From Salinimicrobium xinjiangense DSM 19287 (GTDB lineage: Bacteria > Bacteroidota > Bacteroidia > Flavobacteriales > Flavobacteriaceae): 61,251 bases of DNA. The stretch lies in the NCBI RefSeq assembly GCF_000423585.1, contig NZ_KE384055.1, forward strand, positions 1 to 61,251. Reading direction: 5' to 3'. Shown here piece by piece: positions 1-35,343 of this stretch. A program made the translations under genes and the position numbers. Position 1 is the first letter of the stretch. Every line of letters begins with the position of its first letter. The notes below the pieces were generated by a model. The model was not told the DNA's origin and searched no databases. It was given only the letters and a program-made list of their open reading frames with translations.

Positions 1-421
1 ACAAATCTCTCAAAGTTTTATACATTGGAGACATAGGCTCCCAGTTCTCCAATTCTCTTTCTATTCCAAAACTGGCAATGGTCTTTGCATCTACCTTATC
101 TGTTTTGGTTTTCACATTCAGACTTTTAATGTAGTTTTTTATTTTATTAGCTAACACCACTGACACCTTCTGGTTCTGAGAATGAAGATAGTAAGCAAGG
201 TTTTCGTAATATACTCCTGTTGCTTCCATTACAAATCTTACCGACCACTCATCATCTTTTTTTTGTTTTAAAGACCAGGATAAGAAATTTTCAAATCCCT
301 GATCTGTATTTTCAAAGGAACGAGTTCCTTTTATCTTAATACTGTTATCTTCTGTTCTTACTTTAATACAGGCATAGAAGTCATTCATCGAAATGTCAAT
401 ACCAATAATTAGTTTACTCAT
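1..421 (-). CDS. IS110-family transposase, N-terminal part (cut by window start)
   Basis: This is the N-terminal 140 residues of a DEDD (RuvC-like) transposase of the IS110 family, the recombinase of insertion sequences guided by a structured bridge RNA. The start at 421 gives MSKLIIGIDISMNDFYAC. Visible acidic residues are D9 in the GIDIS strand, E66 in the MEATG motif and D108/D111 in the KTDKVDA motif, which match the conserved N-terminal pattern of the family. The serine-containing C-terminal Tnp domain lies outside the window, so integrity cannot be judged. The upstream neighbour on the other side of the noncoding flank is engB, a housekeeping gene, so this is an insertion between core genes. 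Family call is firm; activity is unknown. Confidence 0.9.
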   Translation of the reverse strand, partial: MSKLIIGIDISMNDFYACIKVRTEDNSIKIKGTRSFENTDQGFENFLSWSLKQKKDDEWSVRFVMEATGVYYENLAYYLHSQNQKVSVVLANKIKNYIKSLNVKTKTDKVDAKTIASFGIERELENWEPMSPMYKTLRDL

Positions 422-7691: not shown

Positions 7692-7717
7692 TTTCTCCCG
7701 GAGAAGAACTAAAACAT

Positions 7718-10320: not shown

Positions 10321-10347
10321 AACAATAAGTATCAAAAAAGGAAATTA

Positions 10348-11556: not shown

Positions 11557-12656
11557 CAAATCAGTTACGGGTTATAATATCAGGTGGCGGCACGGGAGGA
11601 CATATCTTTCCGGCAATTTCTATTGCCAATGAATTAAAGTTGCGCTATCCCACCTGCGAGATCCTGTTTGTAGGAGCCGAAGACAGGATGGAAATGCAAA
11701 AAGTCCCTGAGGCTGGCTATAAAATAGAAGGATTGTGGATTAGCGGAATTCAGCGCAGGCTTACTGCCAAAAATCTGCTGTTCCCGGTAAAGCTTGTGAA
11801 AAGCTTGTGGAAGGCACGAGATATTATAAAGAAATTTCAGCCAGATGTGGTGATTGGTACCGGCGGATTCGCCAGCGGACCTCTATTGCAAATGGCTAAC
11901 AGGGAGAATATCCCCACTTTGATCCAGGAGCAGAATTCCTATCCCGGGATCACCAATAAATTGCTTGCGAAAGGGGCAAATACTATTTGTGTTGCTTATC
12001 CAGATATGCACAGGTTTTTCCCTGCGGAAAAGATCGTACTTACAGGTAACCCGGTAAGACAGGATCTTTTGGATGTGACTTCAAAACGTGAAGAGGCGCA
12101 AAAATTCTTCGGAATTGATCCTTCAAAGAAGACAGTACTTGTTCTTGGCGGGAGTCTTGGAGCCAGGAAGATCAATCAATTGATCGAAGACAACCTGAAG
12201 GAGTTTGAGAAACACAATTTGCAGGTGCTATGGCAAACCGGAAGTCTTTACTACGATGAATACAGTAAATATGCTGAAAAAGAACATATCCAGACTTTCG
12301 CATTTTTGAAGAGGATGGATCTTGCATATTCCGCGGCAGATATTATTATTTCGCGTGCGGGTGCAGGGACAGTCTCAGAATTGTGCATTGTTGGAAAGCC
12401 GGTGGTTTTCATTCCGTCGCCTAATGTGGCCGAAGATCACCAGACAAAGAATGCCATGGCCGTGGCCGAAAAGGACGCTGCCGTAATACTTTCAGAAAGT
12501 CATTTGGAGCAGGGCTTCAGGTCAATTTTCTTTCCGCTTGTAGAATCGGAAGAGAAAATGAAGAGTCTGGGCAAAAACATCAAAGCTCTGGAGAAGCCTT
12601 TTGCTACAGGAAACATTGTGAATGAAGTGGAAAAATTATTGAAGACCAGAAGATAA
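11553..12656 (+). CDS. murG: UDP-GlcNAc:lipid I transferase MurG
   Basis: A 367-residue peripheral membrane GT-B glycosyltransferase that adds GlcNAc to lipid I to give lipid II. The N-terminal glycine-rich loop [11 protein letters not shown] (about 11-21), a second glycine-rich LGGSLGA loop, and the donor-binding [11 protein letters not shown] motif are visible. Length is typical. It starts inside the ftsW stop (ATGA) and ends one base before murC, so it is tightly coupled on both sides. Confidence 0.97.
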
Positions 12657-12657
12657 T

Positions 12658-14013
12658 ATGGGATACTACGATAACATAAAGAACATTTATTTCATAGGGA
12701 TTGGAGGCATAGGCATGAGTGCCCTTGCCCGCTATTTTCATTCCGATGGAAAAAATGTTTCGGGTTATGACCGTGTCCATTCTGAGATTACGCGCGAACT
12801 TCAAAAAGAAGGAATACAAGTGATCACGTCAAGCGCAGTCGAAGATCTGCCAGAAGCGATCTTACAAGACCGCGAATCCCTGGTAGTTTACACTCCTGCC
12901 ATCCCCCAGGATCACCCACAATATGTGCATTTTACAGCCGATAGCTATACCATGGAGAAACGTGCGGGGGTGCTTGGAAATCTTACCGCCGGTCATCTTA
13001 CGCTTGCAGTCGCGGGAACTCATGGAAAAACCACCACCAGTACTATGCTGGCACATTTGCTCAAGGAAACAGGCAATAAAATAACTGCATTTTTGGGAGG
13101 TATATCAGAGAATTACGCATCTAATCTTATACTAGGTGGTGATGAGGCTATGGTGGTCGAAGCAGATGAATTTGATCGTTCCTTTTTAAAGCTTTCACCC
13201 AATCTGGCAGCCATTACTTCTATGGACGCCGATCATCTCGACATTTACGGGGATGATATCCAGATCAAAGAATCTTTCAGGGCATTTGCAGCCCTGGTAC
13301 CGGAGGACGGAAAACTGTTTTTTGCAAACGGGCTTCCGCTTGAGGGGATATCTGTAGGAGTGGACGATGATGCCGACATAGCTGCGGTTAACATAAGTGT
13401 CAAAAATGGCAGTTATCACTTCAATTTAAGAACTAAAGAAAAAACATATAAAGGCTTCGAATTGAGCCTTCCGGGAAAACATAATTTACAGAATGCAGTC
13501 ACAGCTTTGGCAATGGCAATTGAATTCGGTGCCCCCCCCGAAGCACTTGCCAAAGCTTTGGCTTCATTTAAAGGTGTGCAGCGAAGGTTTTCCTATCGCA
13601 TACAGCAGGAAAATCTGGTATTAATTGACGATTACGCCCATCATCCTGCCGAGATTTCGGCGGTGCATCAGGCGGTTCGGGAAATGCATCCGGGGAAGAA
13701 GGTTTTGGCAGTTTTTCAACCGCATCTCTTCAGTCGCACACGGGATTTTGCTGAAGGCTTTGCGGAAAGCCTGGGAATGTTTGATGAGTTATTGCTGCTG
13801 GATATTTATCCGGCGCGGGAAAAGCCAATTGAGGGAATTACTTCAGAATGGCTTCTGAAGCTGGTCAAAAATGATAAAAAACAGCTCGTTTCAAAAGAAG
13901 AGCTTTCCGAAGCAATAAAATGTAAAAATGCTGAGGTAGTGGTGCTTATGGGCGCCGGGGATATTGGAGAAGAAGTAGAAAAAATAAGAAAGAAACTGGC
14001 AGGTGAAAATTAA
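12658..14013 (+). CDS. murC: UDP-MurNAc:L-alanine ligase MurC
   Basis: A 451-residue cytoplasmic Mur ligase that adds the first residue, L-alanine. The N-terminal nucleotide-binding GIGGIGMSALA motif, the ATP loop GTHGKTTT (120-127), EADEFDRSF, and the C-terminal DDYAHHPAE motif are all present. Length is normal. It overlaps ftsQ by 11 bases. Confidence 0.97.
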   Translation: MGYYDNIKNIYFIGIGGIGMSALARYFHSDGKNVSGYDRVHSEITRELQKEGIQVITSSAVEDLPEAILQDRESLVVYTPAIPQDHPQYVHFTADSYTMEKRAGVLGNLTAGHLTLAVAGTHGKTTTSTMLAHLLKETGNKITAFLGGISENYASNLILGGDEAMVVEADEFDRSFLKLSPNLAAITSMDADHLDIYGDDIQIKESFRAFAALVPEDGKLFFANGLPLEGISVGVDDDADIAAVNISVKNGSYHFNLRTKEKTYKGFELSLPGKHNLQNAVTALAMAIEFGAPPEALAKALASFKGVQRRFSYRIQQENLVLIDDYAHHPAEISAVHQAVREMHPGKKVLAVFQPHLFSRTRDFAEGFAESLGMFDELLLLDIYPAREKPIEGITSEWLLKLVKNDKKQLVSKEELSEAIKCKNAEVVVLMGAGDIGEEVEKIRKKLAGEN

Positions 14014-14719
14014 CTGGAATTACATAAAAACCTTCTTGGTGATTGGCGTTGCGTTCTTTTTATTTGCATTCGCCGAAAAGCGCAATCACGCCCGGATTCT
14101 TTCCGAAGTAAATCTGCAATTTACCAATGATGAAAACCTGTATCTCACTGAAGAAGCGGTTAATAAATTGTTAATACAAAATGAGATAAGGGTTAAGAGT
14201 ATAGGTAAAGAAACTTTAGATTTGAATAGGGTGGAAAGCCTTCTGGAATCACATGAGATGGTCGAAAATGCTGAAGTTTTTCTTAGTGTTGACGGAAAGA
14301 TGGGAGCAAAGATCACCCAGAGAAAACCTTTGGGTAGAGTGATGGCAAGTGCACCTTTTTACCTTGACAGACAGGGCTTTAAAATGCCTCTTTCAGAGTA
14401 TTATTCGGCAAGAGTGCCTGTGTTGACGGGCGTTAGGGAAGAGCACCTAAAGGAAGTTTTCCCGCTGGTGGACTATATCACAAAGGATGAATTTCTCACC
14501 AGGCATGTAACAGAACTACAACGCAGGAGAGATGGGAAGTACGAAATATCACTGAGAAAGCTGGATTTTGTGCTGGTGTTTGGAGAAGTAAAAGACATCG
14601 AATTAAAGTTTAAAAATTTTAAAGCTTTTTATCAGAAGGCACTGAAAGATAAAAAGCTTGACGCATATCAAAAAGTGGATCTGCAATTTGGTGACCAGGT
14701 TGTATGCACTAAAAAGTAA
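14003..14719 (+). CDS. ftsQ: FtsQ/DivIB-like cell-division protein
   Basis: A 238-residue bitopic protein with a very short cytoplasmic N-terminus and one transmembrane helix (about 6-23), followed by an extracytoplasmic region with POTRA/FtsQ-like organisation: VESLLESHEMVENAEV followed by KITQRKPLGRV. FtsQ scaffolds FtsL and FtsB at the septum. The assignment relies on this motif order and on the invariant position between murC and ftsA. The start at 14003 lies inside the murC end. Sequence conservation with proteobacterial FtsQ is low, as expected. Confidence 0.88.
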   Translation: MKINWNYIKTFLVIGVAFFLFAFAEKRNHARILSEVNLQFTNDENLYLTEEAVNKLLIQNEIRVKSIGKETLDLNRVESLLESHEMVENAEVFLSVDGKMGAKITQRKPLGRVMASAPFYLDRQGFKMPLSEYYSARVPVLTGVREEHLKEVFPLVDYITKDEFLTRHVTELQRRRDGKYEISLRKLDFVLVFGEVKDIELKFKNFKAFYQKALKDKKLDAYQKVDLQFGDQVVCTKK

Positions 14720-14722
14720 AGT

Positions 14723-16060
14723 ATGGAACAGAACGACATCGCAGTAGGATTAGATATTGGAACTACTAAGATCGTAGCCATGATCGGCCGTAAGAATGAT
14801 TACGGAAAAATGGAGATCATTGGAATAGGAAAGGCCAAGAGCCTTGGGGTGCACCGTGGAGTGGTAAACAATATTACCCAGACGATACAGTCCATCCAGC
14901 AGGCGATACAGGAGGCAGAGGCCGATAGCGGAATGAAGATCAAAGATGTGGTGGTAGGTATAGCCGGTCAGCACATTCGCAGTTTACAGCACAGTGATTA
15001 TATCACGCGTCCTAACCCGGATGAGGTTATCGATGCCAGTGACATTGAAACCCTTTGTAACCAGGTACACAAGCTGGTGATGCTTCCGGGAGAGGAGATC
15101 ATCCATGTTTTACCTCAGGAATTCAAGGTTGACGGGCAGGCTGAAATTAAAGAGCCTATCGGGATGTACGGCGGAAGGCTTGAAGCCAATTTTCATGTGG
15201 TAGTTGGACAGGTTTCTTCTATTAGAAATGTTGGAAGATGTGTGAAGAGCTCAGGATTGGAACTTTCGGCAGTCACCTTAGAACCACTGGCATCTGCAAA
15301 TGCGGTTCTAAGTCAGGAAGAAAAAGAAGCCGGAGTGGCGTTGGTTGATATTGGTGGTGGTACTACAGATCTTGCCATCTTCAAAGATGGGATTATTCGT
15401 CACACAGCAGTAATTCCATTTGGTGGCGGTGTGATCACAGAAGATATCAAGGAAGGCTGTTCGATCATTGAAAAGCAGGCAGAGTTGCTAAAAGTGAAAT
15501 TTGGATCGGCCTGGCCGGGAGAGAACAAGGACAATGAAATTGTTTCAATTCCCGGACTTCGAGGTAGAGAGCCAAAAGAAATAACACTAAAAAATCTGTC
15601 CAAGATCATCCACGCCAGAGTTGTGGAGATCATTGAGCAGGTTTACCTCGAGATCAAGAATTACGGTCACGAAGAGCAAAAGAAAAAATTAATTGCCGGT
15701 ATCGTATTGACCGGAGGTGGTGCACAATTAAAGCACATCAAGCAGCTGGTGGAATATATCACCGGAATGGATACCAGGATTGGATATCCTAATGAACATT
15801 TGGCCGGGGACAGTGATTCTGAAACTACGAGCCCGGTATTTGCCACCGCAGTTGGGCTTGTGTTGAACAGCCTTGAGATCAACAGCAAGCATCCTCATAA
15901 GGAGGAAGAAGAAGAGACAGTAGCGGCAGGCACTACTCCCACAGCTGTTCCAACAGAGGAAGAGGAGCGGGAAGAGCCAACTACTATTAGTCAGCCACGC
16001 AGAACAATATTTGAGAAATGGTTTGAAAAATTCAAAGATTTTTTAGACAACGCCGAGTAG
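14723..16060 (+). CDS. ftsA: FtsA, actin-like membrane tether of FtsZ
   Basis: A 445-residue actin-fold protein that anchors FtsZ filaments to the membrane. Phosphate-1 motif GLDIGTTK (9-16), phosphate-2 motif DIGGGTTDLA (about 207-217) and the adenosine motif LTGGGAQLKH (about 328) are visible. After the core there is a roughly 35-residue acidic/proline-threonine linker and a terminal amphipathic helix (starting TIFEKWFEKFKDFL), the expected membrane-targeting sequence. It starts 3 bases after ftsQ. The 69-base gap to ftsZ holds no clear terminator. Confidence 0.97.
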   Translation: MEQNDIAVGLDIGTTKIVAMIGRKNDYGKMEIIGIGKAKSLGVHRGVVNNITQTIQSIQQAIQEAEADSGMKIKDVVVGIAGQHIRSLQHSDYITRPNPDEVIDASDIETLCNQVHKLVMLPGEEIIHVLPQEFKVDGQAEIKEPIGMYGGRLEANFHVVVGQVSSIRNVGRCVKSSGLELSAVTLEPLASANAVLSQEEKEAGVALVDIGGGTTDLAIFKDGIIRHTAVIPFGGGVITEDIKEGCSIIEKQAELLKVKFGSAWPGENKDNEIVSIPGLRGREPKEITLKNLSKIIHARVVEIIEQVYLEIKNYGHEEQKKKLIAGIVLTGGGAQLKHIKQLVEYITGMDTRIGYPNEHLAGDSDSETTSPVFATAVGLVLNSLEINSKHPHKEEEEETVAAGTTPTAVPTEEEEREEPTTISQPRRTIFEKWFEKFKDFLDNAE

Positions 16061-16129
16061 GAAAGTCGGCATAAGAATTACTATGAAAAAGAAAGATAAA
16101 AGAAGTACAAAACCAGTAAAACAGAATTT

Positions 16130-18103
16130 ATGAGCAGCACAGAATTCGGAAACATTACATTCGATCTCCCCAAGAATCAATCGAACGTTATAAAAGTTAT
16201 TGGTGTAGGTGGAGGCGGTAGTAACGCGATCAATCACATGTTCCAGCAAGGGATAAAAGGGGTGGATTTCGTTATTTGCAACACCGATGCACAAGCCCTT
16301 GAAAACAGTCCCGTTCCCAATAAAATCCAGCTTGGAGTTAGAGAAACGGAAGGACTGGGTGCAGGCGCCGATCCTGAAGTCGGTCGCAAGGCAGCAGAAG
16401 AAAGTTTTGATGAGATACGGGCTCTTTTGGACACCAATACCAAGATGGTATTTATCACTGCCGGAATGGGTGGTGGTACAGGAACAGGAGCTGCGCCAAT
16501 AATTGCCAAACAAGCTAAGGACATGGGGATACTCACGGTGGGGATCGTGACTATTCCATTTCAGTTTGAAGGGAAAACTAGGTGTGAACAGGCACAACAC
16601 GGAGTAGAAAACCTGCGTTCGCACGTGGATTCTCTTATTGTGATCAACAATAATAAGCTGCGGGAGGTTTATGGAAATCTTGGTTTCAAAGCCGGATTTT
16701 CCAAGGCAGATGAAGTACTTGCCACTGCTTCAAGAGGTATAGCCGAAGTAATTACCCATCACTATACGCAGAACATTGACTTGCGGGACGCCAAGACCGT
16801 TCTTAGTAACAGTGGTACCGCTATAATGGGATCTGCACAGGCATCAGGTGGAAACCGTGCGCAGGATGCTATATGCAAGGCTTTGGATTCTCCGCTGCTT
16901 AACGATAATAAGATCACAGGTGCCAAAAATGTGTTGCTGCTTATCATTTCCGGTTCCGAAGAAATTACTATTGATGAGATAGGAGAAATAAGTGATCATA
17001 TCCAGGCAGAAGCCGGGCACAGTGCAAATATTATTATGGGTGTTGGAGAGGATGAAAGCCTTGACGATTCTATTTCGGTAACTATCATCGCTACAGGATT
17101 TGACGTAGAACAACAAAATGATATTGTAAATACAGAAGCAAAAAAGATCATCCATACATTAGAGGATGAGCAAAAGGCAGAACATGAACTTTCACCGAAG
17201 AAAACCTCTTCGGCTTATGAAGGTCCTTCTGCTACTCCTAAGGCAGCAGAAGAGAAGATCGTTCACACCCTTTCGCTGGAGGACGAGGAGATAGAAGAGG
17301 AGCCGGAGAGCAATAAACCTTCGGCAGCCGTCAGAGAAATGGATGTGGAATATGAAGAAGTAAAACCTGTAAAAGAACCAGAATTTGTTATCACAGACAG
17401 GGTGAAGGATATTGAAGTACAGGAACCTGAGGTTGTAAATCCTGAACCACAGGAACAGCAGTTTATGTTCACTTTTGATATGCCTCGCAATACTTCCGAA
17501 GAGAATCAACCACAACAAATATCTTCTGAAGAAAGACCGGAACCTGCGCGGGAGGAAAAGATCGTCCACAGACTTTCTGAGGATATGGAGGAAAAAACCG
17601 AATTGAATAAGAAAGAACTTTCTGCCCAGGCTAAAAATACGCATAATGGAATCACCCGGTACTCTCTGGATGATTACATGCAGGTAGAAGAAATGCTTAA
17701 AGGCTCGCAACCAGTTAAGCAACAGAAGCCCGAAATTGAGCCGGAGCTTAAAAAAGCGCCTGCTCCCATACAACCTCCAATAGCGAAATTGCCAAATACC
17801 CCGGAGGTGAAGAAAACCCCTGAAGATGATGCGGATCCCTTCAATATCCCTATCAATGAAAGCCTGGTTAAAAGAGCTGCCGAGAGGAAAGCAAAAATGA
17901 AGGAGTTCAATTACAAATTCAGAAACAATCTTTCTAAGGTAGATGAGTATGAAAGACAGCCGGCCTATAAAAGACGCGGAATTGATCTCGACACTTCAAA
18001 ACCCGGAGAGGAAAAACTTTCCAGAACCACACTGGGCACAGGTGATGATGATGAAATACGATTCAGAACGAATAATTCGTTTTTACATGATAATGTAGAT
18101 TAG
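16130..18103 (+). CDS. ftsZ: FtsZ with a very long, motif-bearing C-terminal linker
   Basis: A 657-residue tubulin-like GTPase that forms the division ring. The GTPase core occupies about residues 15-330, with GGGGSNAI near 27 and the tubulin signature GGGTGTG at 114-120. The remaining ~325 residues are a charged, proline/glutamate-rich, probably disordered linker, far longer than in E. coli FtsZ (383 residues in total). The linker holds three copies of KI(I/V)H(T/R)L followed by acidic residues (from 339, 376 and 477). A conserved-looking basic block, PAYKRRGIDLD (about 611-621), precedes the terminal FLHDNVD, presumably the partner-binding peptide. It is the last gene of the operon, followed by a strong terminator. 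Confidence 0.97.
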   Translation: MSSTEFGNITFDLPKNQSNVIKVIGVGGGGSNAINHMFQQGIKGVDFVICNTDAQALENSPVPNKIQLGVRETEGLGAGADPEVGRKAAEESFDEIRALLDTNTKMVFITAGMGGGTGTGAAPIIAKQAKDMGILTVGIVTIPFQFEGKTRCEQAQHGVENLRSHVDSLIVINNNKLREVYGNLGFKAGFSKADEVLATASRGIAEVITHHYTQNIDLRDAKTVLSNSGTAIMGSAQASGGNRAQDAICKALDSPLLNDNKITGAKNVLLLIISGSEEITIDEIGEISDHIQAEAGHSANIIMGVGEDESLDDSISVTIIATGFDVEQQNDIVNTEAKKIIHTLEDEQKAEHELSPKKTSSAYEGPSATPKAAEEKIVHTLSLEDEEIEEEPESNKPSAAVREMDVEYEEVKPVKEPEFVITDRVKDIEVQEPEVVNPEPQEQQFMFTFDMPRNTSEENQPQQISSEERPEPAREEKIVHRLSEDMEEKTELNKKELSAQAKNTHNGITRYSLDDYMQVEEMLKGSQPVKQQKPEIEPELKKAPAPIQPPIAKLPNTPEVKKTPEDDADPFNIPINESLVKRAAERKAKMKEFNYKFRNNLSKVDEYERQPAYKRRGIDLDTSKPGEEKLSRTTLGTGDDDEIRFRTNNSFLHDNVD

Positions 18104-22773: not shown

Positions 22774-23803
22774 ATGGAAAAACTGAACGACCCATTCAGA
22801 AATATTATTGTCATTGGTGCATCTGCAGGCGGAATTCCTGCTGTGAATAATCTTCTTTCCGGTTTTACATCCGAAATGGATGTTGCTGTTATAGTTGTAA
22901 TTCACGTTTCACGAAATCAAACAGTAAGCACATAGCCAGTAGCTTCCAAAGAAATTCTACTCTCACTGCTCAAGTTGCAGAAAAAGGGATGACTATTCAA
23001 AAAGGTCATTTATATGTTGCTCCTCCCGAGCATCAGCTAATGGTTAAAAATAATAGAATTCTTCTCACTACCGGGCCGCATGAAAATAAGTACCGTCCCT
23101 CCATTGATGTTCTTTTTCGTTCTGCCGCAGTTCATTACCGTAACCGGGCGATCGGCATAATTTTGTCAGATTATTTGAGGATGGTACTTCGGGGATGCAT
23201 ACTATAAAGAAGTGTGGGGGAATCTGTATAATTCAGGATCCGGCGGAGGCCCAGTTTTCAGACATGCCCAGAAGCGTGCTTAATAAGATTGAGGTAGATC
23301 ACAAGGCTAATCTCGATGAGATGCCTTCAATAATTAAAGAAATATTAGGGCAACCCCTTCCACCGGAAATACCGGTCCCCAGGGAAATTAGCATCGAAGC
23401 TGAATTAACAGAAAAAATGATGACAGATATTAATCAAATAAAGAAAATTGCAGATCACACAGATTTTACCTGTCCCGATTGCGGAGGTGGACTGTGGGCT
23501 ATTAAAAATGATCCTGTACACCGCTATAGATGTCATACGGGACATGTCTATACAGAGAATAAACTACACGACCTGCAGGATGGGAACATTGAGGAGTCTC
23601 TTTGGGTGAGTATTCGCATGCTGGAGGAAAAAGAAAATCTTCTTCTTTTGATGGCGAAGCGTGAAGGTGAAGACGAGCAAACGGGAATCTCCTCTTTTCA
23701 CCAGGAAAGGGTGGATGTTATTAGAAAACACATAGACCGTTTAAGATCTTTGTTGTCTGCTTTAAATGAAGACCTGCACCGAAATTTACCTCCTGCCGGT
23801 TGA
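22774..23803 (+). pseudogene. CheB-type methylesterase gene broken by two one-base deletions
   Basis: The three reading-frame pieces join into one CheB-like protein-glutamate methylesterase with a C-terminal zinc-ribbon extension. Piece 1 from 22774 has the nucleophile motif GASAGG and VIHVSR, then shifts near 22915; restoring one A gives RKSNSKHIASSF. Piece 2 has the YVAPPEHQL segment, then shifts near 23178; restoring one G gives YLEDGTSGMHTI, the catalytic aspartate region. Piece 3 holds the VDHKANLDEMP segment and CPDCGGG...CHTGH zinc ribbon (about 23470-23560). No receiver domain is present. Both losses are next to homopolymers, so sequencing error remains possible. It converges on a receiver gene. 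Confidence 0.82.
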
Positions 23804-24217: not shown

Positions 24218-27200
24218 TCAGTTCTTTATTGCATTTGGTAAGGTAAAAGTGAAGACAGAGCCTTTTCCAAAATTACTTTTCACTAAAATTTTTCCTCCGT
24301 GTCGCTCCACGATTTCCTGGGCCAGGAACAACCCTATTCCCAAGCCGGCATAGGTTTCTTCGCTTTTTCCTTCAACACGGTGAAAACGCTTGAAAATTTC
24401 CTTTTGATCCTTTTCGCTTATTCCAATTCCCTGATCTGTCACACTCACAGCAGCTACTTTTTCCTCAATCTCAAAGATCTTTACTTTAACGGTTCTGCTT
24501 TCCGGAGAATATTTAATGGCATTCGTGACAAGATTAATGATTACCTGGCCAATTCTATCTTTATCTGCCTCCACCCGAAAGTTTGCTTCCTCTTTAATTT
24601 CGATTTTATGGACAATTTCTGTTCGGTTAATATCTTGAATAGTTTCCTTCACAAGATCGTTTAAATTCAGGTTTGTCTTCTTAAGGTCCAGTTTATTTTC
24701 CTCAATTCTGGAGAGGTCCAGAATTTCAGAAATTAACCGGGTTAATCTACTTACCTGTTCATTGATGCGATAAAGTGAAGGTTCAATGGGGAGTTGATTT
24801 AAATCCTGTTGTTTTTGCTGCAGTAAGCTAAGAAGTAGCTGCACGTAACCTTTAATTGAAGTTATAGGAGTTTTGAGTTCATGGCTTACCAATTGCAAAA
24901 ATCCTTCTTTCCGCTTCTCTTCTTCCTTAAACTTTTCGATCTCTGTAGTTGCCCCAATCCAATTTTTTATTTTTCCTTCTTCATCTTTAATAGCAATTGC
25001 ACGGGTACTATGCCATCTGTAATCTCCTTTTTTATCCCGGAGCCTCATTTCCATCTCCAGTTCTACACCGGTTTCGGCACTCTTTTTCCATTTTGTTATA
25101 GTTTCAGGAAGGTCATCAGGATGGACCAGTTCTAACCAGCCCCTTTCCAGTAATTCTTCATGACTCCAGCCGGTGTAGTCGAGCCAGTTCTTATTATAGT
25201 AAGTAACTTCTCCCTCTGCATTCGCATTGGTGACCTTCTCGGGGATAAGCTCTGTAAATTGCCTGAATTGTTCACTGCTCTTTATCAGCGTTTTTTCTGC
25301 CTGTTTATGGGTTTCAATATTGGTATTGGTTCCAAACCATTTCATGATCTCTCCATCTGAACCAAACAGCGGGAGCGCTTTTGCCAGAAACCAGTTGTAG
25401 TTACCCTCTGCGTCCATTAATCTATACTCTATTGAAAAAGGATCTCCGCTTTTAAGACATTCTTCCCAGTGTTCTTTCACACCTCTTTTATCATCAGAAT
25501 GGACAAAATCAAGCCACTTATCTATTTCAGAATCAGTATTGGCAGACCCGGTATAGCTTTTCCATCTGGAATTGTAGAATTCGGGTTTTCCCTTAGCATT
25601 GGTGATCCAGATCAATTGTGGGATCGTCTCAACCAAAAGTCTGAACCTGAATTCACTTTTTTCAAGAGATTTCTCGGCCATTCTTTTATCGGTGATGTCT
25701 CCAAAAACCAGTAAGACCAGTTTTTCTCCGCCTTCTTCTCTTACCACTTCCCTGGCATTGATGAGCATTGTGCGTTCCCCTACAACAGGAAATTCCTGGG
25801 TGATCTCGTAGTTTGATATGGGAATTTTTTCCTGGAGGACCTGCTTTAGTAGTTTCTCAAGTTCGGGCAGGTCCCAGTCCCTGTTACCAAGGCTTAAGAG
25901 AGATTTATTCTCAACTGCAGCTTCAGATGTTCTAAAGGTCCTGTAGAATACTTTGTTGGCTGATTTGATCCTGAGACTACTATCAAGCACAAGCCATGGT
26001 TCTCTTACTGTTTCCAGGATGTCAACTGCAAAATTCTTCGCCGTTGTAAGATTTCTGTTCATGCTTAGCAGCTCCTGATTAAGGCTGGTAAGTTCCTCGT
26101 TGGTGCTTTGCAGTTCTTCTTTACTTGTTTCCAGTTCCTCGTTGAGGGTTTGGAGCTCTTCGCTTCCGCTCTGTAGCTCCTCATTGGCACTTTGCAACTC
26201 CTCGTTAGTAGCTTCCTGGTCTTCGGTAATGCTGCGCATGTCCTCCCGTGCCTGTGCGAGTTCTCTTTCAAGCTGAAGAATTAGCCGGTCTTTTTCATCT
26301 GCACTACTTTCTCCCGAATATGTTTTTCTTTCTATGTGCCTTAACTGCGGCATGTTTGGCTGCGCCTCAGGATCGTGAAATAATACTAAATGGTAAGGCT
26401 CTGCAAGGCCTGTCATGGGTATTGCTTCTATAGACAATGAACGCTGCTCTCCTCCTTCCTGTATTGGGATATTCTCACGAATTATAGATTCTCCCTGTTT
26501 TTTCGCATGATGGATTATGCTTCTCAGTTCAAAGGCCAGACCGGGTTTGGCCATTTTCATAAGGTTCAAATCAGGTTTCCCTGCCTGTGGTTCAAGATAT
26601 GAACCTGTACGGCCGCGAAAATGTACAATATCCATAGCCTCATCGACGACTACCCCTGCAGGTGTATAACGGTTTAAGATGATTTCATCTGCTGTACGCT
26701 GAAAGTCTGTTCGGGCATTTTCTGCCTTTACCGGCCGGCTATAATTCCGGATACTTTCTTCCCTGCGCTGTCCCGCAACCTGAATAAATTTTCCGGGGCG
26801 GTTCTTTGGTGTGAAAATTCTGTGATTTTTTTCTTCCGAATTAAAGAGATCGGGCGCATTTCCGGTTGTCTCAGATTTCCCCAGCAATAAATATCCCCAC
26901 TTTTGAAGGGCATAATGAAAGGTCGTAAGTGCCTTTTTTTGCAGGTAAGGCTGAAGGTATATGAGCACATTACGGCAGGAAATGATGTCCATTTTTCCGA
27001 ATGGCGGATCCTTTAGAAAATTATGATATGAAAAGATGCACATCTCGCGCACCTCCTTGTTGATCTGGTAATCATTATCACGTCGACCAAAGAAGCGTTC
27101 CAGGCGCAAAGGACCAATGTCTTCAACTTCGGCCTTCCTGTAGATTCCACTACGTGCCTTTTTTATTGCAGGTTCATTAATGTCGGTGCCAAAGATCTGC

Positions 27201-28255
27201 ACGTTGACATCAACATTATTTTCTTCTATGTATTCCAGTAGACATATAGCTATACTATATACTTCCTGACCTGTACTGCAGCCAGCCACCCAAATCCTCA
27301 CAGAATCTTGCCCGCTTTTGTTTTTAAAGATTTCAGGAAAAATTGAGCTGGAAATCCTGGCAAAAATCTCTTCATCTCTGAAAAAACTCGTGACCGGGAT
27401 CAAAAGATCCTGCTGTAGAATGTCCTGCTCGAGATGGTTTTCCCGTAGATGTTGCAGGTATTCTGCAGGGTTTTTTTTATTACTGAGGGCCATTCTGCGT
27501 AAGATCCTTCGACGAATGGTACTTTGCTTGTAGTATGTAAAGTCTATCCCTCTTCTAATTCGAAGTAATGCCAGGATCTGCTTATAAATATCTGCGTTCT
27601 CTGTTTCCAGTTTCTTTTCACCACCGTCTACTCCCAGGAAGCTTTCTGTCACTTCTAAGATTTTTTGGGGAATTTCCCTGGGAGGAAGAATAAAGTCCAC
27701 CACTCCTTCATCTATGGCCGAATGTGGCATCGAAGCATATTCTGCTGTATCTTCACTTTGAGCAAAGGTGATCCCTCCATTTTCTTTAATTGCCTTAAAG
27801 CCCGCTGTACCATCAGCTCCATTCCCGGTAAGAATAACACCAATAGAATGAGCCTGGTAAACTTCTGCAAGCGATTTGAAGAACAGATCTATGGGAAGAT
27901 TTACTGATCCATCCTTTTTTTCGGGTCGGGGACTGAGTTTAAGTTTGCCGTCATAAGACATCAGCATTCTATTGCTCGGAATAACATAAATATGATTAGC
28001 TTCGACCGAAAGATCGTCAGATATTTCAAAAACAGGTATTTCCGAACATTTTTGAAGCAGCTCAGGCAGCAGGCTTTCATGATTGGGATCCAGGTGTTGA
28101 ACAAGTACATAGGCCATTCCTGAATTATCCGGAATTGCCTGAATGAATTCCTTAAATGCAGCCAGACCTCCCGCCGATGCGCCTACTCCAACCACCGGAA
28201 ATGGATTGGCAGATTTTTTCAATTCACTTAATAAACTTTCTTTATCTGCAGGCAT
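24218..28255 (-). CDS. CheB-CheR-PAS hybrid sensor histidine kinase
   Basis: A 1345-residue soluble fusion. In order: a CheB methylesterase domain (about 18-205; S27 in GASAGG, H54, D148), a CheR methyltransferase domain (about 225-485; SAM motif AGCSTGQE, then ISCRNVLIYL), a linker with NEELQS-type coiled-coil repeats (about 655-735), three PAS domains (about 740-860, 870-985, 995-1110), a HisKA domain with phospho-acceptor H1125 (SHELKTP) and an HATPase_c domain ending at 1340 (DQGIGIS, GLGIGLF). CheB-CheR-PAS proteins are a known family. A full C-terminal kinase makes this a complete two-component sensor. There is no membrane helix. It is followed at once by a receiver gene. Confidence 0.95.
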   Translation of the reverse strand: MPADKESLLSELKKSANPFPVVGVGASAGGLAAFKEFIQAIPDNSGMAYVLVQHLDPNHESLLPELLQKCSEIPVFEISDDLSVEANHIYVIPSNRMLMSYDGKLKLSPRPEKKDGSVNLPIDLFFKSLAEVYQAHSIGVILTGNGADGTAGFKAIKENGGITFAQSEDTAEYASMPHSAIDEGVVDFILPPREIPQKILEVTESFLGVDGGEKKLETENADIYKQILALLRIRRGIDFTYYKQSTIRRRILRRMALSNKKNPAEYLQHLRENHLEQDILQQDLLIPVTSFFRDEEIFARISSSIFPEIFKNKSGQDSVRIWVAGCSTGQEVYSIAICLLEYIEENNVDVNVQIFGTDINEPAIKKARSGIYRKAEVEDIGPLRLERFFGRRDNDYQINKEVREMCIFSYHNFLKDPPFGKMDIISCRNVLIYLQPYLQKKALTTFHYALQKWGYLLLGKSETTGNAPDLFNSEEKNHRIFTPKNRPGKFIQVAGQRREESIRNYSRPVKAENARTDFQRTADEIILNRYTPAGVVVDEAMDIVHFRGRTGSYLEPQAGKPDLNLMKMAKPGLAFELRSIIHHAKKQGESIIRENIPIQEGGEQRSLSIEAIPMTGLAEPYHLVLFHDPEAQPNMPQLRHIERKTYSGESSADEKDRLILQLERELAQAREDMRSITEDQEATNEELQSANEELQSGSEELQTLNEELETSKEELQSTNEELTSLNQELLSMNRNLTTAKNFAVDILETVREPWLVLDSSLRIKSANKVFYRTFRTSEAAVENKSLLSLGNRDWDLPELEKLLKQVLQEKIPISNYEITQEFPVVGERTMLINAREVVREEGGEKLVLLVFGDITDKRMAEKSLEKSEFRFRLLVETIPQLIWITNAKGKPEFYNSRWKSYTGSANTDSEIDKWLDFVHSDDKRGVKEHWEECLKSGDPFSIEYRLMDAEGNYNWFLAKALPLFGSDGEIMKWFGTNTNIETHKQAEKTLIKSSEQFRQFTELIPEKVTNANAEGEVTYYNKNWLDYTGWSHEELLERGWLELVHPDDLPETITKWKKSAETGVELEMEMRLRDKKGDYRWHSTRAIAIKDEEGKIKNWIGATTEIEKFKEEEKRKEGFLQLVSHELKTPITSIKGYVQLLLSLLQQKQQDLNQLPIEPSLYRINEQVSRLTRLISEILDLSRIEENKLDLKKTNLNLNDLVKETIQDINRTEIVHKIEIKEEANFRVEADKDRIGQVIINLVTNAIKYSPESRTVKVKIFEIEEKVAAVSVTDQGIGISEKDQKEIFKRFHRVEGKSEETYAGLGIGLFLAQEIVERHGGKILVKSNFGKGSVFTFTLPNAIKN

Positions 28256-28767: not shown

Positions 28768-29145
28768 TTAGGCTTCAAAATTCTTTGCCTTATTGATGGT
28801 ATCTTCTATGCTTTGGAGAAAGCTGTCTACTTCAAAGGGTTTGGCAATAAAATTACTTGCTCCGGCAGCAATACAAGTTTCTCTGGCCCCATCAAGTCCC
28901 GACATCATTAGTATTGGAGTACTTGAAATTGATTCTGTATTTCTTACTTCACTACAGATTTCTGTTCCGTCGATACCACTTAATAATTTATCCATTATGA
29001 CAAGGTCAAATTCATCTTCCAAAAGATATTCAACAGTTTGTCTGGGTGATCGTAACAGCTCTACTTTATAACCATGCATTTCCAGCTGATCATTAAGAAT
29101 GAGGCCTAGATGATAATCGTCCTCAACCAGTAAAATTTTATACAT
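28768..29145 (-). CDS. Stand-alone response-regulator receiver protein
   Basis: A 125-residue single REC domain. Acidic residues E8-D9-D10, phosphoacceptor D52 in IMDKLLSG, the switch serine in MMSGLDG and the lysine in AKPFEV are present. It resembles the receiver at 23827-24216 (same LLSG-x-DGTEIC layout), so the two probably arose by duplication. It is divergent from the giant poly-HAMP kinase (258 bases between starts) and lies upstream of the CheB-CheR kinase. No output domain is present, so it is a likely relay or adaptor protein. Confidence 0.9.
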   Translation of the reverse strand: MYKILLVEDDYHLGLILNDQLEMHGYKVELLRSPRQTVEYLLEDEFDLVIMDKLLSGIDGTEICSEVRNTESISSTPILMMSGLDGARETCIAAGASNFIAKPFEVDSFLQSIEDTINKAKNFEA

Positions 29146-29403: not shown

Positions 29404-32400
29404 ATGTCAAAAACTGCCACGTCTCCCAGGAAAAATAGTAAGGCTTCTTCAGGGGACGTTAAACCAACAAAGCGCCATATTGTAAAAAAGTCTAAGAGGG
29501 TACCAGATAGAGATATGTTTAAGGACAGTGACTATGTTCATGAACAACTGGATAGATTAATATTTGCACTTGAGGCCTTTAGGGAAGGAGATATTTCTGT
29601 TCGCCTTTCCAAAGAACGAAATGATAAGTTTGCCGATCTGGCCGAAGCCTACAATACGATGGTTGAGATGATTGGGGGTGTAAGTACAGAGGTATCGCGT
29701 ATTTCGCGTGTTGGTGGTATTGAAGGTAACCTGGATGCCCGGGCAGAATTCAGAGCTTCCAGCGGGGTATGGAAGGATATGATCGATAACATTAATATTC
29801 TTATTGAAGCCATTGCAAAGCCGGTACTTGAAGTAAGCCGAATTCTGAACAGTATCGCTGCCGGGAAACTGGAAGATAAATTTAGCCTGACGGTAACCGG
29901 AGATTTCCGGGCGATGGCCGATGTAATTAACCGCACCCTGGGTAGTTTGAATATTTTTGCAGAACAGGTAACCCTTGTGGCCCGGGAGGTGGGTGTCGAA
30001 GGAAAACTGGGAGGGCAGGCAAGTGTGCCAAACGTTTCGGGAACCTGGAAGGATCTTACAGACAATGTGAACCACATGGCGAGTAACCTTACCGAACAGG
30101 TACGGGAAATAGCCCGGGTTACTACAGCGGTGGCCGATGGAGATCTTTCCAGAAAAATTACTGAAGAAGGTAAAGGAGGGGAAGTTCTTGGCCTCTCCAC
30201 TACAATTAACCGGATGGTGGACTCGCTAAACATTTTTGCAGCAGAGGTTACCAATGTGGCCCGCGAGGTGGGGGTTGAAGGAAAGCTGGGAGGTCAGGCC
30301 GATGTACCCGATGTGGCAGGAACCTGGAAAGATCTTACAGTGAACGTAAACACTATGGCATCCAACCTTACTGCTCAGGTGCGGGAGATCGCAGGGGTAG
30401 CAACCTCGGTTGCAAATGGTGACCTTTCTAAAAAGATCTCTATTAATGTAAAAGGAGAAATTGCTGAACTTAAAGACACCATCAACCAGATGGTGGATTC
30501 CTTGAATATCTTCTCTGATGAGGTAACCCGTGTGGCACGTGAGGTGGGAACTGAAGGAAAGCTGGGAGGGCAGGCCGAAGTTCCGGATGTAGCCGGTACC
30601 TGGAAAGATCTTACAGATAATGTGAATACCATGGCGAGTAATCTTACGAACCAGGTACGGGAGATTGCATCGGTAACCACCGCGGTGGCACAGGGAGATC
30701 TTTCACAAAAAATTACCGAAGAAGGAAAAGGAGGAGAGGTACTGGTCCTTTCCAATACTATTAACAGCATGGTCGATTCCCTGACCTTGTTTGCTGCCGA
30801 GGTAACCCGTGTGGCACGTGAGGTGGGTACCGATGGGAAACTGGGAGGGCAGGCAACTGTACCAACCGCAGCAGGTACCTGGAAAGATCTTACCGATAAT
30901 GTAAATATCATGGTAAGTAACGTAACCACACAGGTACGGGAGATCGCCAATGTAGCTACCGCGGTGGCCGATGGAGATCTTTCCCAGAAGATTACTATTG
31001 ATGTAAAAGGAGAAATTGCTGAACTTAAAGACACCATCAACCAGATGGTGGACTCGTTGAACATTTTCTCCGATGAGGTAACCCGGGTGGCCCGGGAGGT
31101 AGGTACAGAAGGTATTCTTGGAGGGCAGGCGAAAGTTCCTGATGTGGCCGGTACCTGGAAAGATCTTACCGATAATGTGAATTACATGGCATCTAACCTT
31201 ACCACACAGGTACGGGAGATCGCAAATGTGGCAACTGCGGTGGCAAAAGGAGATCTGGCTCAGAAAATTGCTATTGAAGCTAAAGGAGAAATAGCAGAAC
31301 TTAAAGAAACCATCAACACGATGGTGGACTCGCTGAATATCTTCTCTGATGAGGTAACCCGTGTGGCCCGGGAGGTGGGTACAGAAGGTATTCTGGGTGG
31401 ACAGGCAGAAGTCCCTAATGTTGGGGGAGCCTGGCTGGAACTAACAGAGAATGTGAATACGATGGCATCCAACCTTACCACCCAGGTACGGGAAATTGCC
31501 TCGGTAACCAAGGCGGTGGCAAACGGGGATCTTTCCAAAAAGATTTCTGAAGAAGAAAAAGGAGGAGAGGTACTTGAGCTCTCCACCATTATCAATACGA
31601 TGGTGGACTCGCTGAACATTCTTTCAAACGAGGTAACCCGTGTGGCCCGTGAGGTGGGAACCGAAGGGATGCTGGGTGGTCAGGCAGAAGTGCCAAACGT
31701 GGCCGGTGCATGGCTGGATCTTACCCGAAATGTGAATACAATGGCAAGTAACCTTACCAGCCAGGTACGGGAGATCGCAAATGTGGCAACTGCGGTAGCC
31801 GACGGGGATTTGTCTCAAAAGATCTCCATTGATGTAAAAGGAGAAATAGCCGAATTAAAAGATACTATTAACCAGATGGTGGACTCGCTGAACGTATTTG
31901 CTGCAGAGGTAACCCGTGTGGCACGTGAGGTGGGAACCGAAGGTAAACTGGGAGGCCAGGCCGAAGTACCAAACGTTGCAGGTACCTGGAAAGGCCTTAC
32001 AGATAATGTGAACACGATGGCGAGTAACCTTACTACGCAGGTGAGGGAGATCGCATCGGTAACAACGGCGGTAGCACACGGGGATCTTTCGCAAAAGATC
32101 TCTGAACAGGGTAAAGGAGGCGAGGTACTTGAACTTTCTACCACGATCAACATCATGGTAGACGCGCTAAACATATTTGCAGATGAAGTAACAAACGTGG
32201 CACGTGAGGTGGGTACAGAAGGTATCCTTGGAGGCCAGGCAGAAGTGCCGAACGTGGCAGGTTCCTGGAAAGACCTTACAGAGAATGTGAACCAGATGGC
32301 GAGTAATCTTACCTCGCAGGTACGTGATATCGCAGGAGTATCTACGGCACTTGCCCGTGGCGATTTCTCCAGAAAGATCGATGTGGAGGTTAAGGGTGAA

Positions 32401-35343
32401 GTACAGGAGCTTAAGAATAACATCAATGCGATGGTAGACAGTTTCACGACCATCGTAAAAGCGGCCAATACAATTGCTGAAGGAAATTTTGCCATTGAAA
32501 TGCCACTTCGTTCTGAAGCCGATCAATTGGGTATCGCCCTGAACACGATGACCGAAAACCTGAAGCGAATATCTGAAGAGAACGAAAATGAAGCATGGAT
32601 AAAAACAGGACAGGCAGGATTAAATGACAGGATGAGAGGAGAGCAGGATCTTACTACCTTATCAAAGAATATTGTTTCTTATCTGACAAAATATCTGGGA
32701 GCTCAGGTTGGGATCATTTATCTGGCAGAAAAACACAATGATAAGAAACGTCTTAGAATGACCGGTTCATATGCCTTTACCCGCAGAAAATCTCTGAAAA
32801 CGACATTTGATTTCGGAGAAGGTCTTGCAGGACAGGCTGCGCTTGAAAAGGAAGTGATCGTCCTTTCCGGCATACCTACAGATTATATAAGCATTTCATC
32901 GGGTCTGGGACATACGAAACCGCAGCACATCCTGGTTCAGCCCTTTATCATAGATGGGGAAGTAACCGGCGTTATTGAAATAGGTTCGTTTAAAGCCTTT
33001 AATGACAGTCAGCTGGAATTGATGCGATCTGTGGGAGAAAACATTGCGATCACCACCAACTCATCGTTGGATAGGGAAAAGATGAAAGACCTGCTGGAGG
33101 AATCACAGCGCCAGTCTGAAGAGCTTTTGAAACAACAGGAAAAATTAAAGATCCAGAGTAAGGAATTGCAAATGGCCAATGACGATCTTGAATCGAAGAC
33201 CAAGGATCTGGAAATGCAAAAAGAAGATCTTCAATCCAGCAGGGTGGAAGTGGAACGCAAAGCCGAGGAATTAGAACTTGCCAGCAAGTATAAATCTGAA
33301 TTCCTGGCTAATATGTCCCACGAATTGAGAACACCTTTAAACAGTCTTCTCATTTTGTCCAAAGATCTTAGCGATAACAGGAAAGGAAACTTATATAAGG
33401 ACCAGCAAAAAGCGGCCAGTATTATATACGAAGGTGGCTTAAGTCTGCTCAACCTTATTAATGATATTTTGGATCTTTCCAAGGTAGAAGCCGGGAAACT
33501 GCAAATACATCCTGAGGAAGTTCTGTTAGAAAATCTTGTAAATAATCTGCAGGATCAATTCGAGCCTCTGGCAAAATCCAAAAAATTAAAATTTACAATT
33601 GAAACCAAATTCAATGCACCGGCAAGGATCATTACCGATGGGCAGCGCCTGGAGCAAATAGTCAAGAACCTTATTTCGAACGGGATCAAGTTCACTGAAA
33701 AAGGTTCAGTAGATGTTACGATTGGGAAACCCGATGAAAAGATCAAATTCCGGGAAATTACCCTTCCAAGATCTGAAGTTCTGGAAATTTCAGTTAAAGA
33801 CACCGGAATTGGTATTCCTGAAGCTAAACGCATGATGATCTTTGAAGCTTTTCAGCAGGCAGAAGGAGGGACTAGCAGACAGTATGGGGGTACAGGACTT
33901 GGATTGACCATATCCAGAGAACTTTCAAGGTTATTGGGAGGAGAGATCCATATAGAAAGTACAGAAGGTGAGGGTAGTATTTTTACCGTATATGTTCCCT
34001 TAGACCTTACAAGTGCACCTATTAAAGAAATAGACGATGCCATTTCTTCTTACAGGGAATCGAATTACGAGACCACTCAGAAAAACAGCCTGCCGGAAGC
34101 CAGGAGTACGGTAGTGAATCGTTCCGAAAATTCTGAATTTCAGGATGACCGGGAGAATTTGAAAACTTCAGAATATTCACTGTTGATCATTGATAATAAT
34201 AAATTTTCTGCACAAACCGTGAAGAAGATCGTCCAGCAATCCGGCTACAAATTTCTTTTTGCCAGAGATGGGAAAGAAGGAATGAAATTGGCGGCCCAAT
34301 ATCAGCCTAACGGTATTTTGCTCGATGAGCAGTTGCCGGACATGAAGGGAATTATTGTGCTGGAACATTTGAAATTCAATCTTAAGACAAGACATATTCC
34401 GGTGTATTTAATGGCTAAGGAAGATCACAGGCGGGAGGCTTTGAGTAAGGGAGCAGTAGGTTTTAGCTTGAAACCGGTCTCTTACGAGGATTTCGAAAAG
34501 GCCATCCTAAAGATGGAAAAATTTCACGCTTCACCAGTTAAGGAACTTCTGATTATTGAGGACGATGCAGCCACTCTTAAAGCTGTTAAAAAGATGCTGG
34601 GAAATAAAGGCATCAATATTTCTGAAGCTACCAACGGAAAGGAAGCTTTAAAACAAATAAGATCCACACGCTTTGATTGTATTATCCTGGACCTTAATTT
34701 GCCCGATCTTGATGGCTTTGAAATATTGAAAAAGCTAAAGTCCAAACAGGAATTAAATGATATTCCCGTGGTGATCTATACAGGAAAGGAGCTTAAAAAA
34801 ACTGAAAAAAAGGAACTGGAAAAATTTGCAGATAGTATCTTGATCAAAGGTGCCTCTTCGCCTGAAGTTTTGCTGGATGAAGTGTCATTATTTCTGCACA
34901 GTGACGAAAATAAGCTCTCATCACGGCAAAAGAAGATAATGGCCGATCTACATGATCCAAAGCATGTTCTAAAAGACAAAAAGGTACTTTTAGTGGATGA
35001 TGATAAAAGAAATTCCTACGCGCTTTCTAAAACCTTGAATGAAGCCGGTATGAAAGTGATCATTGCTGAAAACGGGAAATTAGCTATTGAGAAATTAGAG
35101 GAAGAAAAAGATGTAGATATTGTCCTTATGGATGTGATGATGCCGGTTATGGATGGTTATGAAGCTACCGCCAAGATCAGGAAAGATAAGGCATATAATG
35201 ATCTGCCTATTATTTCCCTAACCGCTAAGGCAATGCCCGAAGATAAAGCCAAATGTCTTGAAGCAGGTGCGAATGATTACCTTACAAAGCCGGTAGATGT
35301 TGATAAACTGCTAAACATTGTTCGCCTGTGGTTACATCAGTAA
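29404..35343 (+). CDS. Giant soluble poly-HAMP hybrid histidine kinase
   Basis: A 1979-residue hybrid kinase without transmembrane segments. After a basic N-terminus come a divergent HAMP pair (about 45-190) and nine near-identical ~92-residue units marked by VAREVG, from residue 192 to about 1020. Each ends in NVNxMASNLT and holds GDLSxKI. The linker alternates between [12 protein letters not shown] and [12 protein letters not shown] types. A GAF domain (about 1080-1225), coiled coil, HisKA with H1306 (SHELRTP), HATPase_c (about 1400-1540, DTGIGIP) and three receivers follow (about 1590-1705, 1712-1830, 1858-1979; D1910 in the last). The layout resembles fungal group III (Nik1/Os-1) osmosensing kinases. 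Receiver 1 lacks part of the acidic pocket. Confidence 0.95.
29977..32480 (+). repeat. Tandem ~276-bp coding repeats (nine poly-HAMP units)
   Basis: Nine consecutive units of 276-279 bases inside the kinase gene. VAREVG codons begin at 29977, 30256, 30532 and so on to 32197. Units are close to identical at the DNA level over long stretches, including synonymous sites, which points to recent duplication or gene conversion. Two linker types alternate in the order A B A B B A B A B. Confidence 0.93.

Follow-up and report, generated by a model that had tools for sequence, protein, structure and literature searches.

The group III hybrid histidine kinases of fungi, such as Nik1 and CaNik1p, possess a single receiver and are not known to carry a GAF domain. 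Ahead of their HisKA, HATPase and REC domains lie repeats of about 92 amino acids (aa), each of them a HAMP pair in CaNik1p (PMC3848655), and no transmembrane region is present (PMC7643160); papers are cited here from the parts of their text that were available. Bacterial group III-like poly-HAMP hybrid kinases, also without a transmembrane region, are already known as a kind and include AskA and AskB of myxobacteria (MXAN_0712 and MXAN_6735) and Amb07 (PMC7643160). Here we describe a kinase of this kind encoded in a stretch of 61,251 nucleotides of Salinimicrobium xinjiangense DSM 19287 (contig NZ_KE384055.1, positions 1 to 61,251, called the window below; genome of 3.76 Mb in 45 contigs), whose repeat units fall into two classes, A and B, in an order kept among its relatives. 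As far as our samples and the literature searched go, the classes and their fixed order are new: in the available texts, neither the work on Nik1-type kinases nor the wider literature searched contained an A/B pattern.

Like the fungal proteins, the window kinase lacks a transmembrane segment and carries repeats of about 92 aa, most likely HAMP pairs, followed by HisKA, HATPase_c and receiver domains. It differs from them in its nine regular units with HAMPs on either side, its GAF domain, its three receivers and its two classes of canonical HAMP. Because of the GAF domain and the three receivers it was classified as a bacterial relative and not as a Nik1 orthologue; to our knowledge, bacteria would not be expected to have a high-osmolarity glycerol (HOG) pathway. 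AskA and AskB were compared by description, not by sequence, and A/B classes are not described for them in the available text. What purpose long chains of HAMPs serve in sensor kinases, and whether every HAMP in such a chain is fixed in one conformation, are questions of the field for which this subfamily provides an internal comparison: two canonical HAMP classes within one chain, differing at few sites.

Nine repeat units of two classes

The kinase gene is an exact and intact open reading frame (ORF) with an ATG start. A DNA repeat search found nine copies in it, with start-to-start spacings of 279, 276, 279, 276, 276, 279, 276 and 279. In the protein, the REVG anchors at residues 194, 287, 379, 472, 564, 656, 749, 841 and 934 are spaced 93/92/93/92/92/93/92/93, which reads A B A B B A B A; the ninth unit was typed as B from its connector length, giving the order A B A B B A B A B. 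The nine-unit repeat is far beyond chance. DNA spacing, protein anchors and connector length thus agree with the original prediction, made from the sequence alone, of nine units of about 92 residues (92 or 93 aa) in this order. Its description of the units as near-identical was too strong, since they are 60-85% identical to one another and the ninth only 60-66% to any other. A two-unit probe gave 6 matches in the genome, all inside the kinase gene, and no second array.

Each unit most likely consists of two HAMPs, one divergent and one canonical, and not of a single one as first proposed. In Pfam searches with fragments, canonical halves matched HAMP (E 1e-8 and 3e-12) and divergent halves gave no match; the pattern of helices and connectors in two low-confidence models fits a HAMP pair, for which the CaNik1p repeats are a precedent. 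A structure search with these models returned the Aer2 chemoreceptor (3LNR) as top hits. As in other poly-HAMP proteins, consecutive HAMPs thus follow one another through continuous AS2-AS1 helices. Units 1-3 also matched solved HAMP units of close sequence, PDB 9TRJ and 9TRK ('histidine kinase,Gcn4p'; E 6e-36 and 3e-77), which differ in that the aligned connector is shorter and B-like. Profile alignment of the two halves gave no information on their similarity to each other, the shared edge alone having aligned. Pfam HAMP covered 9 stretches of the kinase, and searches with fragments revealed further HAMP-like segments on both sides of the nine units; the N-terminal fragments matched HAMP (E=1.2e-4), HAMP_2 (E=0.011, partial) and HAMP_2 (E=1e-5), and the middle segment was assigned from its pattern only. 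With a pair in each unit and these flanking HAMPs, the chain holds about 22 HAMPs.

The highest Kyte-Doolittle mean over 19 residues was 1.34. The kinase therefore has no membrane segment, as predicted, and its description as a soluble poly-HAMP relay kinase held. The cytoplasmic input that had been proposed is reasonable, although a second input could enter at the GAF domain, which lies between array and kinase.

For comparison of the classes, 90 units from 10 full-length members of the subfamily were aligned (40 A, 40 B, with the ninth unit of each protein kept apart). A and B were separated at 12 of 93 columns (overlap < 0.5), all within the canonical half: 45 and 47 in AS1; 61, 62, 63 and 65 in the connector; and 68, 69, 70, 72, 73 and 77 in AS2 (helix labels assigned by eye). 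The divergent halves did not group by type (AA 0.82, BB 0.77, AB 0.80; four members). B connectors carry hydrophobic residues; those of A are polar and one residue longer, and both this length and the A residues at columns 61, 68, 69 and 72 were kept in 40/40 A units. The distance from the connector Gly to the AS2 Glu was 14 in 40 and 13 in 50 of the 90 units. Column 69, the position of the DExG glycine, was Leu in every A unit and Ala in every B unit (40/40 each), and column 47 was Thr in 38/40 A and Ala in 40/40 B units.

Column 47 corresponds to A291 of Af1503, both by a phmmer alignment that is gapless but weak (E 0.91) and by structure (model 52..103 on 278..329). In Af1503, larger hydrophobic side chains at 291 lower the output and shift the packing (PMC3585426). 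Single-HAMP work had thus already tied some of the A/B sites (A291 of Af1503, the connector and the DExG position) to packing. Because sites known to determine HAMP packing are among those that separate the classes, we infer from the aligned residues that A and B are canonical HAMPs biased to different states.

The explanation that we favour, with modest confidence, is a soluble GAF hybrid poly-HAMP kinase in which A and B canonical HAMPs are differently biased and a rod relays a cytoplasmic cue to the kinase. The soluble protein would be a dimer, with an N-terminal half that forms a rod from about 22 consecutive HAMP four-helix bundles. Within a unit, the divergent and the canonical HAMP would prefer opposite packing states, as in Aer2; the canonical HAMP, in version B (Ala at the A291 equivalent) or version A (mostly Thr), would favour one or another packing state or stiffness. 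The rod would relay, and perhaps threshold, the cue, the GAF input would join the array signal, and the output may run as a phosphorelay via receiver 3 and perhaps also via the single-domain regulator encoded nearby.

Order and constraint among relatives

Relatives were collected by a scan of named genomes (best 80 of at least 581 relatives) and from genome samples, each including its centre. An array was present in 13 of 395 Bacteroidota genomes (E <= 1e-40), 10 of 369 of the Alteromonas class (1e-100), 1 of 40 of the phylum of the Calditrichia bin, 6 of 148 of the phylum of locus L019, 3 of 397 of the window's own family (1e-250) and 3 of 390 of the Teredinibacter order (1e-200). The arrays of the Bacteroidota, Alteromonas-class and L019-phylum samples were typed, except that of G217, whose units were too weak; some of them are truncated at contig ends. 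The arrays of the Teredinibacter-order sample were read as well.

The order A B A B B A B A B, with nine units each, was identical in 10/10 full-length members from three phyla: the window, three genus genomes (G002, G011 and G007), Salegentibacter, two Gramella, Teredinibacter, Alteromonas and the Calditrichia bin. In L014 and L022 the fourth unit was at first scored '?', and its linker reads as B. Comparison of relatives, proposed as a check with the original prediction, thus gave a consistent order, from which only the fragmentary Fulvivirga copy deviates: split over two contigs, it reads A B (other) B ... A B, and its unit 3 is neither A nor B. This constancy differs from AskB, whose tract length varies between two Myxococcus species (PMC4603909). 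In the C-terminal tree the A/B subfamily formed one clade with support 100/100 against 11 other poly-HAMP kinases.

Other arrays were represented by 33 pieces, of which units scoring 100 bits or more were used. The Gly-Glu distance was 13 in 263/265 of their units, and both exceptions lie in the Fulvivirga copy (L024): one is a genuine A unit, and the other arose from faulty parsing at the odd unit 3. With the four L024 units left out, all 261 units had distance 13 and 0/261 were of type A; among the samples, A units are therefore limited to the subfamily and its Fulvivirga relative.

A palindromic reading, ABABBABA with the ninth unit as a terminal class, was not supported, since that unit scored 72 bits with the regular and 62 with the terminal profile. 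Kinship of A units with the penultimate units of other arrays was also rejected: mean profile scores favoured the regular class for units 1, 3 and 6 and tied for unit 8. Loss of Lys at column 72 is common to A units and those penultimate units. The rows of other arrays compared here have 5 to 14 counted units, and contig ends truncate some of them. The penultimate counted unit lacked this Lys in 20/31 other array rows (L020, L124-L132, L170-L182), and 18 of these 20 had Val at the A291 equivalent (count by eye), which marks a unit close to the kinase as position-specific.

In the original prediction, A and B were read as adjacent HAMPs with opposite conformations, and the doubled B as a possible sign of either a recombination join or a boundary in function. 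The two classes do exist, as does a doubled B that the relatives conserve, and in the HAMP series of Aer2 conformers alternate between neighbours, those of opposite output being real (PMC3570549). Aer2 differs in having three plus two HAMPs and a chemoreceptor output, and its available description does not mention A/B connector classes. In the window protein, however, a divergent HAMP-like segment separates the canonical HAMPs of A and B; with a HAMP pair in each unit, the published alternation falls within the unit, and A/B is a second, coarser pattern above it. The doubled B, found in all full-length members down to 82% array identity, is therefore inherited, and a recent recombination at this point was rejected. 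We consider the neighbouring-conformer account quite unlikely.

The array of the window is under strong constraint. It shares 98-99% identity with the arrays of Salegentibacter and Gramella, with strongly diverged synonymous sites. For the Salegentibacter pair, nonsynonymous divergence (dN) was 0.013 and synonymous divergence (dS) 1.19 in the array, and dN was 0.071 in HisKA+HATPase; in more distant subfamily pairs synonymous sites were near saturation. The dS of the array was below that of most of the remaining gene, so that some exchange or codon constraint in the array is possible. In six pairs, the best cross-species match of a unit was the unit at the same position in 6-9 of 9 cases; units are therefore individually held, and concerted evolution was rejected for most positions.

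Conservation of the array above that of the 250 residues around the catalytic core was observed in 11/11 measurable pairs, 7 of them from other families, and is therefore a general feature; it does not fit a passive spacer. The pairs included L126/L127, L130/L131, L124/L129, L170/L173, L170/L172, L019/L023 and L130/L129, and the array was taken as 29977-32475 in the window.

Two observations weigh against differently biased classes in a relay. The arrays of the relatives were presumably inherited from one ancestral array, for which the alternation is not clearly beyond chance: among the 126 orders of four A and five B units, 15 keep all A units apart and 9 contain eight or more runs. In addition, the column-47 string is TATAATATS in 9/10 members and reads TAAAAAATS in the Calditrichia bin, an argument against Thr being strictly bound to type A. 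The 9/126 orders also favour an account in which A and B have no separate function, A having arisen once, an AB block having been copied in tandem and the order having been frozen as unequal exchange grew rare. The restriction of A/B differences to the canonical half, the ungrouped divergent halves and the deviating unit 3 of Fulvivirga are consistent with it; the A connector and columns 61, 68, 69 and 72, kept in 40/40 units while synonymous sites approach saturation in distant pairs, and the units held position by position argue against it. We regard such a history as possible but doubtful.

The relay that we favour could be extended to a two-state ladder, in which A and B would take opposite packing states with divergent HAMPs between them and a central BB node, the signal would be inverted or thresholded step by step, and the order would be a functional code kept intact through cross-phylum spread; this we think unlikely. 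Selection or history may have kept the order across three phyla. The subfamily is a natural test of how relay chains work: an A/B swap at a single position would bear directly on the two-state relay model.

Presence of the kinase is patchy: 4/12 genomes of the genus (4/10 nearly complete ones) carry it, in addition to the low family count given above. This is odd for a general salt sensor, and so bears on the proposal that the array itself is an osmosensor, as suggested for fungal Nik1, and that the subfamily serves salt adaptation. Several members bear the names of genera that we take to be marine. Osmosensing has been connected with fungal group III kinases that carry such 92-aa HAMP pairs (PMC3848655), but the architecture differs here in the GAF domain and the three receivers. 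Osmosensing by the array has, in our estimate, a low probability.

Kinase identity to Alteromonas, Teredinibacter and Calditrichia was 72%, 76% and 70%, as opposed to 47, 48 and 47% for Tex (compared in 10 genomes; 2, both Gramella, without match), which makes transfer between phyla likely. C-terminal identity to Salegentibacter was 76% versus 60% for the neighbouring Tex protein; this is suggestive of horizontal transfer within Flavobacteriaceae, not proof of it. A tree with the genus kept together was not rejected (p 0.315), and L011 and L014 have downstream genes in common. In PLSDB, 167 plasmid records matched at E <= 1e-30, none of them at 80% identity or more.

Domain layout and neighbouring genes

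Table 1. Features of the kinase, of its surroundings in the window and of CheR-bearing array loci.
Feature	Position	Strand	Remarks
Poly-HAMP GAF hybrid histidine kinase	29404..35343	+	1979 aa; ORF, Pfam
Three N-terminal HAMP-like segments ahead of unit 1	29530..29979	+	canonical, divergent, canonical; residues ~43-192
Unit 1, type A	29983..30261	+	93 aa; second part of divergent HAMP + canonical HAMP, long connector
Unit 2, type B	30262..30537	+	92 aa
Unit 3, type A	30538..30816	+	93 aa
Unit 4, type B	30817..31092	+	92 aa
Unit 5, type B	31093..31368	+	92 aa; doubled B with unit 4
Unit 6, type A	31369..31647	+	93 aa
Unit 7, type B	31648..31923	+	92 aa
Unit 8, type A	31924..32202	+	93 aa
Unit 9, terminal	32203..32478	+	B from connector length; most divergent; Ser at A291 equivalent
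Last canonical HAMP	32446..32592	+	residues ~1015-1063; overlaps end of unit 9; Pfam HAMP E=1.6e-5 (fragment)
GAF domain	32644..33051	+	residues 1081-1216; Pfam GAF_2 E=3.3e-18
HisKA	33292..33495	+	residues 1297-1364; phospho-acceptor box SHELRTP; Pfam E=7e-16
HATPase_c	33637..34005	+	residues 1412-1534; Pfam E=4.1e-28
Receiver 1	34171..34503	+	one of 3 Response_reg stretches; bounds set by eye
Receiver 2	34567..34908	+	one of 3 Response_reg stretches; bounds set by eye
Receiver 3	34984..35322	+	residues 1861-1973; best Pfam Response_reg stretch; usual key residues present, by eye
Single-domain response regulator	28768..29145	-	divergently placed ahead of kinase
CheB-CheR-PAS-histidine kinase fusion	24218..28255	-	near kinase
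CheR-bearing loci	L016:15935-16774, L021:15911-18413, L022:15886-17998, L019:14765-16197, L207:10475-12105, L210:3658-5144		

Receiver 1 is perhaps degenerate, since D-N replaces the acidic pair and Met replaces Thr/Ser. Long antisense ORFs that run over the array probably just reflect sequence composition.

Pfam searches gave weak SpoIIID and HTH_6 matches that overlap HAMPs at 30037-30117 and 31864-31944 (kinase residues 212-238 and 821-847). Matches of these kinds have been reported for AskA and AskB, where DNA-binding domains were proposed from them and DNA binding in vitro is claimed (PMC7643160); by analogy, the window kinase might bind DNA through helix-turn-helix-like segments inside its HAMPs. 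Because the scores lie below the Pfam cut-offs and the matches overlap the HAMP array, they are most simply read as a by-product of the repeat, and DNA binding is highly improbable.

The single-domain regulator is a possible partner of the kinase. A regulator 71-73% identical to it adjoins the kinase in L011, L014, L017 and L018; no relative was found in the fetched flanks of L012, L013, L016, L021 and L022, and within the genus copies above 46% identity occur in G000 and G002 only.

On the other side of this regulator, the CheB-CheR-PAS-histidine kinase fusion may be a modifier of the kinase. No CheB or CheR was found in the fetched flanks of six flavobacterial relatives (L011-L014, L017, L018). 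CheR lies directly downstream of the kinase on the same strand in L016, L021 and L022, and CheR and/or CheB was present in the fetched flanks, of differing length, of 14/41 array loci. As a side observation, poly-HAMP kinase genes of several phyla are followed by CheR and partly also by CheB or a REC-histidine kinase, a layout like that of cfcABCDE of Pseudomonas putida.

These neighbours raise the idea of a chemoreceptor-like kinase, in which CheR would methylate glutamates of the array or of the coiled coil and CheB would remove the methyl groups. The hybrid kinase CfcA of P. putida is likewise clustered with CheR and CheB genes (PMC4951495), a likeness in gene layout to L016, L021 and L022; no array is mentioned in the available text. 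Mutants in the other cfc genes kept the phenotype, according to an unpublished result of the authors (PMC4951495), and neither CheR nor CheB was found in the fetched flanks of 6/10 subfamily loci and 27/41 array loci. We take the CheR neighbourhood as a lead toward methylation control, not as evidence for it; such control appears distinctly unlikely.

Two further regions of the window were recorded. At 22851-23803 (+), two overlapping ORFs in different frames are both weakly CheB-like, as if one gene had been frameshifted. At 4225-18103 (+) lies a cell-division and cell-wall cluster with a penicillin-binding protein, Mur ligases, a family 4 glycosyl transferase, an FtsW-like protein and FtsZ.

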